Shown here in pieces: positions 43,433 to 45,724 of a stretch of 45,724 nucleotides of DNA. A program made the translations under genes and the position numbers. Where the stretch lies: contig CAJVZM010000003.1 in assembly GCA_913020475.1 (NCBI GenBank), forward strand, positions 1 through 45,724. Reading direction: 5' to 3'. The notes below the pieces were generated by a model. The model did not search any database. It worked only from the letters and a program-made list of their open reading frames with translations, and had not been told where the DNA came from. Numbering within the stretch: the first letter of the stretch is position 1; each line of letters starts with the position of its first letter. Origin of the DNA: an uncultured Flavobacteriaceae bacterium. Its GTDB lineage: Bacteria; Bacteroidota; Bacteroidia; Flavobacteriales; Flavobacteriaceae.

Positions 43433-43852
43433 TTATTCGAATTGACTTGCGTCAAACTTTAGTGTTTTATTAACTAGGTCTAAAACCCCTTTTGCAACTG
43501 TTTTTTTACCGTCTGTAACGTTATCAAATGTATACAACTCAAATATTTTTCCATTTCTTTTCCATATTCCTTGAAGTGAAGCTCTTGCAAAATCTTCTCC
43601 TACTTGTGTCCATGCCAAACCAGTAAACTCTCCTGCATCTTTAGTATCCATTTTATTTGTAAAAACATAGGATAGATAAACACGACCATATTCTCCTGCT
43701 TCGCCAGAAACATTCATTTGGTTGCTGTCTATTCCTAAAGTTACTGAATCAACAGTAAAGTCAGCTTTAAACATATTTTTACCCAAAGGAATGTCTTGTC
43801 CAAATGTAAAACCTCCTAATAGGATTGATGCAAATAATAATAATTTTTTCAT
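43433..43852 (-). CDS. Secreted protein of unknown function
   Basis: A 139-aa protein with a clear signal peptide (MKKLLLFASILLGGFTFGQ). The mature part is beta-rich, with LGKNMFKADFTVDSVTLG, VYLSYVFTNK and GKIFELYTFDNVTDGKKTVA; no Cys and no catalytic motif are visible, and there is no T9SS sorting domain. It may be a lipid-binding or beta-sandwich protein (weak inference). A full-consensus promoter upstream and an intrinsic terminator downstream show it is a single-gene transcript. Confidence 0.78.
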   Translation of the reverse strand: MKKLLLFASILLGGFTFGQDIPLGKNMFKADFTVDSVTLGIDSNQMNVSGEAGEYGRVYLSYVFTNKMDTKDAGEFTGLAWTQVGEDFARASLQGIWKRNGKIFELYTFDNVTDGKKTVAKGVLDLVNKTLKFDASQFE

Positions 43853-44143: not shown

Positions 44144-44218
44144 GGGTGTTTAGCTCAGTTGGTTTAGAGCGCTACCTTGACAGGGTAGAGGTCACCGGTT
44201 CGAATCCAGTAACACCCA
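44144..44218 (+). tRNA. tRNA-Val (anticodon GAC)
   Basis: A 75-nt cloverleaf: acceptor stem GGGTGTT/AACACCC with discriminator A; D arm around GCTC-AGTTGGTTTA-GAGC; anticodon stem CTACC/GGTAG with loop TTGACAG (anticodon GAC at 44179-44181); T arm CACCGG-TTCGAAT-CCAGT-type with TTCGAAT. CCA is not encoded. The 3' part is a common integration target, and the genes to its right look acquired. Confidence 0.95.
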
Positions 44219-44222
44219 CAAA

Positions 44223-44278: not shown

Positions 44279-44311
44279 AAAGAATTTCTACTACGTGTTT
44301 TTCTTCTCTTG

Positions 44312-45241
44312 TTATTTTTTAAACTCGTTTAATGTGAACGATACATTATAAATAAATACATCAGTATCAAAAGGAGCATATTCTAACGCATAGTCAAGTT
44401 TCTTATCATACTTACCTGCTATTATTATACCTTTTACATTATCATCTTTTAGATGTCTTTTAACCCATCCCATATACCTTGTTAGCTGACCAAATGTATC
44501 ATCACTTGTTTGGTTTCTTTTAAGTTCTATAACTACGTGATTTTTGTTCTTTTTGTCCTTTACAAGAATATCAATAATGCCAATATCAGTTCTATATTGC
44601 TTGCTTATTAAATCCCCATTTTCATAAATCAAGTCATACTTTTTGCCAAGTTCTGTACTCTCCCAATTATTGATAATAAAATCTTCAAGTTGACTTTCCA
44701 TATAGAACAAACCTTGACTATATGATGAATCCTCATTTTTAATTTCAATATTTATAATCTTACCATAATACTCTACCAATTGGTTTAGGTCTTTATCAAA
44801 TTGCTCACCTGAAATAGTATTCCCATTCTTGTGGTTAATAAATGAAACTGTTCCATTTTCTACTTTAGGTTCGTATGATTTGAAAACATATGAATCTCCA
44901 TAGCGATAAGGCTTTTTAAAGGAGTTAGTTTCAAAATATTCAGCAATAGTTGGGTTGTTGTCTGAAACATCATTAGACCAAGTATCACCGCCTACAAACG
45001 CTTCCATAATACCATATGCTAAAACCAATATATTTTCTTCTTTATAATACAAATACACACAGTTTATGCCTTTTGTATTTCTAATATCATTGTTGTGGAT
45101 ACTTACCCAAGAAATTTTTGCAGGAGTACCCATACCAAATGAAAATTTAACGTCTAAATCAAGATACTCTTTAGGGTATTGTGATGATTTTAGATTTGTA
45201 GTTTTTGATTGAAGAATGAAATTAGAGATATGACTATACAT
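44312..45241 (-). CDS. MrcB-N (DUF3578)-like domain fused to NucS-like PD-(D/E)xK nuclease
   Basis: A 309-aa protein. Residues about 20-160 resemble the DUF3578/MrcB N-terminal domain: FSFGMGTPAKISWVSI, GINCVYLYYKEENILVLAYGI and a DLNQLVEYY closing helix. Residues about 180-300 match the NucS/DUF91 endonuclease: MESQLEDFIINNW (Glu183), TDIGIIDILVKD (Asp224), HVVIELKR (Glu239, Lys241), then GQLTRYMGWV (Gln252). The D-ExK-Q set is complete, so it should cut DNA. By analogy with McrB, the front domain may read modified or specific DNA, making this a possible stand-alone defence nuclease (inference). It has a 34-nt gap from the upstream gene on the same strand. Confidence 0.75.
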   Translation of the reverse strand: MYSHISNFILQSKTTNLKSSQYPKEYLDLDVKFSFGMGTPAKISWVSIHNNDIRNTKGINCVYLYYKEENILVLAYGIMEAFVGGDTWSNDVSDNNPTIAEYFETNSFKKPYRYGDSYVFKSYEPKVENGTVSFINHKNGNTISGEQFDKDLNQLVEYYGKIINIEIKNEDSSYSQGLFYMESQLEDFIINNWESTELGKKYDLIYENGDLISKQYRTDIGIIDILVKDKKNKNHVVIELKRNQTSDDTFGQLTRYMGWVKRHLKDDNVKGIIIAGKYDKKLDYALEYAPFDTDVFIYNVSFTLNEFKK

Positions 45242-45275: not shown

Positions 45276-45602
45276 TTACAATATTTCTACTCCGTGTTCT
45301 TTTTCATATGCTTCCACTTTTTCTAGTCTTTCTTTTTCATCTACTGATGTAACTATTTGTATTTGGTCAAAGATTGGTAATTCAGGTGTCTCATCACTAA
45401 TAGTCTTGTGAGTGTACTTTGGAACTGCATAGGGGAGTAGCTTTATGATAAACTCCAACCTCTCTTTATTATTCAAACTTTCTATATAGGCAGGTATCTT
45501 GTTGAACTCCTGTAATACCATATCTTCTATATTTTCTGTAATTGCTGTTCTTTTGTTTGGTGTACCTGTTTTTCTGCCACCTGTTTTATAACCTTTTGCC
45601 AT
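45276..45602 (-). CDS. Phage-like small protein with GGRKxGTPNK motif
   Basis: A 108-aa soluble protein with a Lys/Arg/Gly-rich start (GYKTGGRKTGTPNKRT). This motif is common in DUF5681-type and terminase small-subunit-like proteins encoded by prophages and transposons. A helical middle (ITENIEDMVLQEFNK, RLEFIIKLLPYAVPKYTH) and an acidic C-terminus follow. In phages such a gene precedes the large terminase; here the next gene on the strand is the nuclease instead. Assignment to terminase is tentative. Confidence 0.6.
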   Translation of the reverse strand: MAKGYKTGGRKTGTPNKRTAITENIEDMVLQEFNKIPAYIESLNNKERLEFIIKLLPYAVPKYTHKTISDETPELPIFDQIQIVTSVDEKERLEKVEAYEKEHGVEIL

Positions 45603-45645: not shown

Positions 45646-45724
45646 ATGAAAAACATTAAAGACATTACTATTTCAATCTTTGCTATAATTGGTTTTGCAG
45701 TATTAATAAGCTTTTCACAATCAA
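45646..45724 (+). CDS. Partial gene at window end, N-terminal hydrophobic segment
   Basis: ATG 45646 opens a frame of 26 codons that runs off the window: MKNIKDITISIF followed by AIIGFAVLISFSQS, which looks like a signal peptide or membrane anchor. Divergent from the GGRKxGTPNK gene. No family can be named from this much sequence. Confidence 0.4.
   Translation, partial: MKNIKDITISIFAIIGFAVLISFSQS

Follow-up and report, generated by a model that had tools for sequence, protein, structure and literature searches.

A gene near the end of a flavobacterial contig raises the question of what the DNA-reading domain of McrB may do in a protein that carries a nuclease of its own. McrBC depends on a ring driven by GTP and on a separate nuclease partner; in the protein considered here a reader of this type is joined within one chain to a NucS-type nuclease. 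By the window we mean the whole stretch of DNA that was analysed (45,724 nucleotides), in which the gene and its parts occupy the following positions.

44312..45241, minus strand: fusion of an McrB-N/ADAM reader with a NucS-type PD-(D/E)XK nuclease, 309 aa (open reading frame, Pfam, PDB sequence search, AlphaFold2 with structural alignment, 19 full-length homologues)
44753..45241, minus strand: reader domain, residues 1-163, McrB-N/ADAM/DUF3578 (Pfam, PDB sequence match, structural alignment)
44699..44752, minus strand: linker, residues about 164-181, with low model confidence (pLDDT)
44315..44698, minus strand: nuclease domain, residues 182-309, NucS/EndoMS C-domain (Pfam, PDB, PADLOC, and structural alignment, where the match starts at 178)

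The open reading frame starts with ATG, and the contig stops at position 45724, 483 bp upstream of this start codon. The genome itself (1.5 Mb, 80% completeness) contains a single match to the fusion protein. In Pfam, MrcB_N (PF12102) covers residues 19-162 with 32.4 bits (cut-off 25), and NucS_C (PF01939) covers residues 200-277 with 56.2 bits (cut-off 24). Among PDB sequences, residues 5-122 match the N-domain of E. coli McrB (3ssc, E = 1.9e-15) and residues 203-278 match NucS (2vld, E = 7.7e-4), while a profile of the 20-sequence fusion family finds the same two entries at E = 9.4e-30 and 3.4e-5, respectively. The AlphaFold2 model built from 20 full-length homologues has a mean pLDDT of 80, falling below 50 at residues 166-180, and a pTM of 0.52, which does not fix how the two halves are arranged. 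Structural alignment assigns residues 1-163 of the model to the McrB-N fold (8ik8_B, Z 18.6, rmsd 2.5, 145 aligned residues) and residues 178-302 to EndoMS (5gke_A, Z 14.9, rmsd 2.1, 112 aligned residues); the next row after McrB-N, EndoMS and NucS has Z 9.6. A chance similarity or a mis-annotation was rejected, since both domains exceed the Pfam cut-offs and the fold scores are well above those of the next rows.

The original prediction, which had proposed an MrcB-N-like front and a NucS-type nuclease, is thus borne out in both halves by Pfam, by the 3ssc and 2vld matches and by the predicted folds. This includes the comparison of AlphaFold models that it had suggested: the stretch of residues 1-165, where a lack of likeness to MrcB_N would have counted against it, has the McrB-N fold over residues 1-163. 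Asp224, Glu239, Lys241 and Gln252 are found at the positions claimed and, together with R255, Y256 and W259, do not vary in any of the 20 full-length fusions aligned.

The fusion belongs neither to McrBC nor to NucS. Pfam and NCBIfam find no GTPase domain in its 309 residues, their matches being limited to the nuclease and to the reader half of McrB, in agreement with the earlier claim of a protein having its own nuclease and no GTPase; unlike in McrBC, the reader is tethered directly to the nuclease. With NucS/EndoMS the fusion shares the C-terminal nuclease fold and the D, ExK and Q residues, but the alignment to EndoMS and NucS starts no earlier than residue 178, the N-terminal domain of NucS being replaced by McrB-N, and the patchy distribution and the variable slot described below also distinguish the fusion from them. 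A broken-off McrB was rejected as well, because 19 relatives have the same short layout and the same nuclease.

We consider it probable that the fusion is a compact single-chain, NTP-independent, modification-dependent (type IV) restriction endonuclease directed against foreign DNA. This reading draws on the two folds and the intact catalytic residues in a single chain, on the patchy spread and the purifying selection, on the slot at a tRNA gene, and on relatives with EVE/YTH-like fronts. How it acts is an inference, for defence as for base flipping, the nature of the base, cleavage and dimerisation, and would run as follows. The McrB-N half would read DNA from the minor groove and would take up in its pocket a flipped-out base, either a modified cytosine or a related one. 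A cut nearby would then be made by the NucS-type PD-(D/E)XK half tethered to it, most likely as a dimer or a pair of molecules, with neither an NTP nor a helper subunit. Incoming phage or plasmid DNA bearing the mark would be removed, and the host, having no such mark, would be spared.

If the front half reads a modified base, its pocket should be comparable with that of E. coli McrB. Passages of a review (PMC3874153), from which the roles of Y64, L68 and Y41 are taken, describe McrB-N as a reader of modified bases in E. coli, Tyr64 as contacting the methyl group, and binding as compromised in the Y41Q variant. Counting the E. coli residues on the alignment of the fusion with the 3ssc sequence, we find W45 and L64 of the fusion to be the equivalents of W49 and L68, and both are kept in 20 of 20 fusions. 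The equivalent of Tyr64 (position N60 of the fusion) is Tyr in 15 of the 20, Phe in one, and Asn in four, namely those of the window, L083, L084 and L092, while the equivalent of Tyr41 is Met or Gln in the 20 aligned fusions. Ten McrB GTPase relatives all retain Tyr64; the L68-equivalent is Phe in one of them, and the Tyr41-equivalent is Gln in seven, Lys in two and Ala in one. By alignment, then, the pocket is of the same build, with one contact altered in the clade of the window, where Asn replaces Tyr64; at Tyr41, Gln is also the commonest residue in the ten McrB GTPases. With Asn at this position the base read may differ, and reading of 5mC by the window protein is uncertain. The mean pairwise identity of the 20 fusions is 46% in the reader half vs 68% in the nuclease half, as would be expected if the more variable reader is the specificity module. 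As the 20 aligned sequences vary in the pocket and none of them varies in the catalytic residues, the specificity of the reader is directly testable.

The family was collected by a scan of one genome per bacterial or archaeal species with one motif of the nuclease half, which gave 417 stretches, 409 of them relatives, of which the best 80 were taken. These include at least 19 further full-length fusions, 46-83% identical to the window protein and matched almost end to end; this is a lower bound, since the scan required the motif. The possibility that the fusion is unique to this window was rejected on these grounds. The tree tool assigns the 19 fusions, bacterial and archaeal, to 12 phylum-level groups. 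The bacterial carriers are Flavobacteriaceae/Bacteroidetes (n = 2), Prochlorococcus (n = 3), SAR324, Pelagibacteraceae, Rhodobiaceae, an actinobacterium, Chloroflexota (n = 2), Neomarinimicrobiota, Peribacteria, Parcubacteria and Falkowbacteria; the archaeal ones (n = 4) include Woesearchaeota, Aenigmatarchaeota and Micrarchaeota. Genomes of the carriers measure 0.7-2.5 Mb, many of them being incomplete.

On the tree, Prochlorococcus, SAR324, one of the Chloroflexota, the actinobacterium, Rhodobiaceae and Pelagibacteraceae form one well-supported side, and the flavobacterial trio, the candidate-phylum bacteria, the second Chloroflexota, Neomarinimicrobiota and the archaea form the other, where the fusions of Woesearchaeota and Aenigmatarchaeota are closely related sisters. 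Neither Pseudomonadota nor Chloroflexota stays together. Such a pattern suggests that the fusion has crossed phylum borders; many rows, however, come from metagenome bins, and splits by themselves prove nothing. A quick tree of 80 nuclease domains, from which the short L107 was dropped, requires two changes for the fusions, and the test of a single clade gives p = 0.153.

Among close relatives the gene is rare. In 60 genomes (the own one, 21 others of the genus, the rest from the family and order), the genus yields a single further match, a remnant of the 3' end of the gene in the genome G002, and one more match is an McrB GTPase. Thus, the fusion is no housekeeping gene conserved in all relatives, an outcome that would have spoken against the original prediction. 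No second full-length fusion was found in these 60 relatives, in 397 genomes of the family or in 395 of the phylum (overlapping sets that include the own genome); the other matches in the family and phylum samples, apart from the G002 remnant, are McrB GTPases and nuclease halves bearing a different front, and the Flavobacteriaceae bin with the fusion L083 was evidently not matched in any of the three samples. Phage records contain no match to the fusion protein. In plasmids only the nuclease half is matched (20 records, none covering 80% of the query). In viral contigs the single-protein query gave 26 stretches with no relative among them, and only the nuclease half was found by alignment queries, at four loci with the nuclease alignment and at three with the 20-row alignment.

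Loss and truncation within the genus, as in G002, would also be seen if the gene were degrading or inactive. We regard this as very improbable: the frame is intact, the catalytic residues are invariant, and non-synonymous change is low relative to synonymous change in the comparisons of the window gene with L083 and L084. For L083, pS is 0.75, the synonymous sites being saturated, and pN is 0.095; for L084, dN/dS is 0.06. As both halves of the fusion combine low non-synonymous with near-saturated synonymous change, the gene is under purifying selection.

The surroundings of the gene were compared within the genus, starting from two further features of the window.

44144..44219, plus strand: tRNA-Val(GAC), left border of a variable slot (ARAGORN; variable content in same-genus genomes)
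45276..45602, minus strand: 108-aa gene in the same slot (open reading frame; its DNA follows the same tRNA-Val in the genome G016)

The tRNA gene and the end of the stop codon of the fusion are separated by 92 bp, as expected from the claim that the gene sits beside a tRNA. A stretch resembling the tRNA-Val(GAC) with its flank is matched in 22 of 22 genomes of the genus, the own one among them, but some of these matches (a few) are weak and could represent other tRNAs; for the comparison of slots, 15 loci around the better matches were taken. In G003, G015 and G018 the tRNA is followed, at 99, 250 and 110 bp, by a conserved gene of 70-74 aa, the slot being empty or nearly so. In G002, 89% identity extends from the tRNA to window position 44435, which takes in the fusion gene's 3' end; beyond this point the sequence diverges. 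In G016 the tRNA flank extends to window position 44287 and is followed, after 18 bp, by DNA 93% identical to window positions 45295-45473; hence the fusion gene is absent exactly where the window has it. Either the window lineage has gained about 1 kb here, or G016 has lost it. Other genomes of the genus have unrelated or additional genes after the tRNA, and some contigs end there. Thus, the slot is variable within the genus (intact, remnant, absent or near-empty) and relatives elsewhere are scattered, in line with the original prediction.

The 108-aa gene matches no family over the cut-off. A distant homologue of it (35% over 71 aa, E = 1e-11) adjoins the L084 fusion, near a tRNA-Ala. The gene may be a companion or belong to a mobile element. 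Small proteins that look secreted are also encoded near both flavobacterial tRNA sites (window 43433-43852, minus strand; L084 9664-10095); their mutual similarity is weak (27% identity over 95 aa, E = 9e-8).

The association with tRNA genes is seen beyond the genus. For 6 of 19 fusions (7 of 20 with the window) a tRNA lies no more than 2 kb away, vs 1 of 60 other loci of the scan (p = 0.0006), the comparison being post hoc, with taxa that differ between the groups and flanks cut by contig ends. The fusions come out ahead at each threshold used (0.5, 1, 2 and 4 kb), with p = 0.041, 0.0026, 0.0006 and 0.0002 when the window is excluded. The tRNA of L088 in this count was called as tRNA-SeC; L117, at a contig end with the nuclease alone visible, was left out, and the result with it counted as a fusion would be 6 of 20 (p = 0.0008).

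We then considered the neighbours of the 19 homologues, for which 110 of 120 selected open reading frames were scanned. Frames containing N were left out; of the ten others omitted, two are very long ones of L091 (rpoB/rpoC-like by our own reading) and eight are short or overlapping. In the two scans, 25 of 106 and 25 of 75 neighbour families were listed. Recognisable defence or mobile genes are found near at least 4 of the 19 homologues (L089, L097, L099 and L101). In a Micrarchaeota bin (L097 5601-12858) the fusion stands together with a tRNA-Pro, a phage-type integrase, an N6/N4 DNA methyltransferase and, following the latter, a large protein that we read as ATPase-like. In two distant genomes (L101 6045-8915 and L099 5687-8900) a MazG-like gene and a Schlafen-group-3 helicase are beside the fusion; in L101 the three genes are closely spaced on one strand, with about 22 bp from the helicase stop codon to the fusion, and a three-gene system is possible. 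L089 has a recombinase zinc-ribbon fragment nearby. Many other homologues sit among housekeeping genes: the L091 fusion comes after genes that we read as rpoB- and rpoC-like, the L085 fusion is beside those for glycyl-tRNA synthetase and pyruvate phosphate dikinase, and the L087 fusion is beside that for ribosomal protein L27. The anti-phage setting proposed initially is therefore upheld as regards the variable slot at the tRNA, but not as regards rich defence islands around the homologues, and it is the slot and the related nucleases, not the neighbours, that carry the argument for defence.

Given the slot, the fusion could be a selfish island gene, that is, a nuclease used in competition among mobile elements that share tRNA sites, with protection of the host as a by-product. 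The small companion gene, found also in another state of the slot, the L097 integrase near the tRNA-Pro and the fusion, and the L089 recombinase fragment are in line with this possibility. We nevertheless judge it improbable, as the window copy shows no integrase and several homologues are located among housekeeping genes; the biochemical mechanism, moreover, would be the same as that of a modification-dependent restriction enzyme.

The neighbours also bear on whether the fusion serves as the restriction enzyme in a restriction-modification pair of the ordinary kind, cutting an unmodified sequence while a methyltransferase protects the host. The L097 methyltransferase, directly downstream of the fusion, would fit such a pair, as would the methyltransferases that adjoin relatives of the nuclease on some plasmids. 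It is, on the other hand, the only DNA methyltransferase among the 33 nearest flanking open reading frames of the 19 loci, for which all families were viewed; none is seen near the window gene, on whose upstream side 483 bp are visible before the contig end; and McrB-N, at least as outlined in the reviewed E. coli work (PMC3874153), reads modified bases. Overall, a pair of this kind seems unlikely, if slightly less so than the selfish gene. Neither McrB nor McrC is present among these 33 frames. The fusion gene usually stands alone, as expected of a self-contained enzyme.

At the level of whole genomes, none of the 20 carriers, the window's genome included, gave a match to McrC (PF10117), a weak test in that the carriers are partly incomplete and the control (E. 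coli not among its genomes) gave a detection in 1 of 14. C5-methyltransferases occur in 1 of 20 carriers vs 16 of 50 controls (p = 0.028), the control consisting of 50 of the 60 non-fusion loci. Among controls of 2.5 Mb or less the count is 6 of 27 (p = 0.21 against the carriers), and in the genus of the window it is 1 of 22. Avoidance of C5-methyltransferases was accordingly dropped as evidence, given the result with small genomes and the low count in the genus as a whole.

The restriction endonuclease reading is further informed by the relatives of the nuclease half. The PADLOC defence candidate PDC-S02 matches residues 146-305 (E = 1.8e-41); none of the 14 PADLOC rows starts before residue 146, and the best covers positions 148-306 of a 308-position model, so that the likeness is confined to the nuclease side of the fusion. 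Classified by motif, the fronts of the best 80 of the 409 relatives are McrB-N (n = 19), EVE/YTH-like (n = 29), LTG (n = 15), YGVWN (n = 6) and unclassified or truncated (n = 11); L150 reads as EVE/YTH-like by sequence, which would make these 30 and the LTG ones 14. For the EVE/YTH-fronted proteins (about 310 aa, similar in size to the fusion but with a front other than McrB-N), a model was built on 27 of the 29 sequences, with two truncated rows left out (pLDDT 81). Its residues 1-162 match the EVE-HNH enzyme VcaM4I (6yex) at a moderate Z of 10.3 and YTH domains, one of them solved with m6A DNA, at an equally moderate Z of up to 9.6; beyond residue 162 it matches EndoMS. EVE and YTH domains are modified-base readers, according to parts of two publications (PMC7641849, PMC11037411). 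Plasmid relatives of the nuclease have further fronts, DUF7669 in L020 and a weak AlwI-like stretch in L019. As the same nuclease occurs with McrB-N, EVE/YTH-like or other fronts, it looks like a chassis on which one front end can be exchanged for another and, judging from the models, like one coupled to at least two kinds of modified-base reader, the second kind being EVE/YTH-like.

These relatives also help to assess a role in DNA repair, in which the fusion would act on mispaired or damaged bases in the manner of NucS/EndoMS, with the McrB-N fold flipping the damaged base. The nuclease half is indeed structurally closest to the mismatch endonuclease EndoMS/NucS, and a passage in the McrB review (PMC3874153) likens the DNA bending and base flipping of McrB-N to those of a human glycosylase. 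But the front half of NucS is replaced in the fusion, related nucleases have EVE/YTH-like fronts, and restriction-modification genes adjoin the nuclease in 4 of 8 plasmid regions viewed, two Acinetobacter ones among these being closely alike. The patchy occurrence, with intact, remnant and absent states of the slot in one genus, is also unlike that of a repair gene. We hold repair to be unlikely, though it is the least improbable of the alternatives to a modification-dependent restriction endonuclease.

Restriction enzymes that combine a reader and a nuclease in one chain are already known; for the pairing of McrB-N with a NucS-type nuclease, the literature searched, with most subscription papers outside its reach, gave no description. 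Like the fusion, MspJI, the EVE-HNH enzyme VcaM4I and the winged-helix fusions have a reader and a nuclease in one chain with no NTPase domain (PMC12707154, PMC11037411; see also PMC7897488); unlike it, they have SRA, EVE and winged-helix readers, respectively, with other nucleases, the MspJI nuclease reaching Z 7.1 against the fusion model. The scarcity of methyltransferases beside the McrB-N/NucS fusions resembles that reported for more than 1,000 such reader-nuclease fusion genes, 87% of which have no methyltransferase among three genes on either side (PMC11037411).

If the favoured reading is true, the methylcytosine reader of McrBC also works when tethered to a small nuclease, in a protein of about 300 residues. 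The fusion would then provide a restriction layer for small-genome lineages (Prochlorococcus, Pelagibacteraceae, SAR324, DPANN archaea, candidate-phylum bacteria), and it would be a candidate for a short reagent that cuts DNA at modified cytosines. A broader and distinctly more speculative proposal, to which we give well under an even chance, is that the NucS-type nuclease is a general restriction chassis with swapped modified-base readers (McrB-N, EVE/YTH-like and at least two fronts with no Pfam match), that its McrB-N branch has spread over bacteria and archaea, including small-genome lineages, as a GTP-free alternative to McrBC, and that the Tyr-to-Asn change in the flavobacterial pocket has shifted the base read from 5mC to another, perhaps a bulkier or hydroxylated phage base.

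Several observations concern the remaining fronts. Pfam gave no front domain over the cut-off in L021 and L013 (EVE/YTH-like), L102 and L105 (LTG), or L015 and L017 (YGVWN). The LTG front, of about 230 residues, is found on nuclease domains 52-67% identical to that of the window (L102-L106, L108, L110-L116, L119). The YGVWN or a similar front, helix-hairpin-helix-like by our own reading, is found in L015, L017, L118, L120, L123, L129, L137 and L146, and nucleases with fronts of this type occur in bacteria and on a haloarchaeal plasmid. Finally, on the 9.6-kb mobilisable plasmid pTK7 (L019 1833-4300) a site-specific DNA methyltransferase gene is directly followed by that of the NucS-domain protein with the weak AlwI-like stretch, and the two are perhaps a restriction-modification pair.
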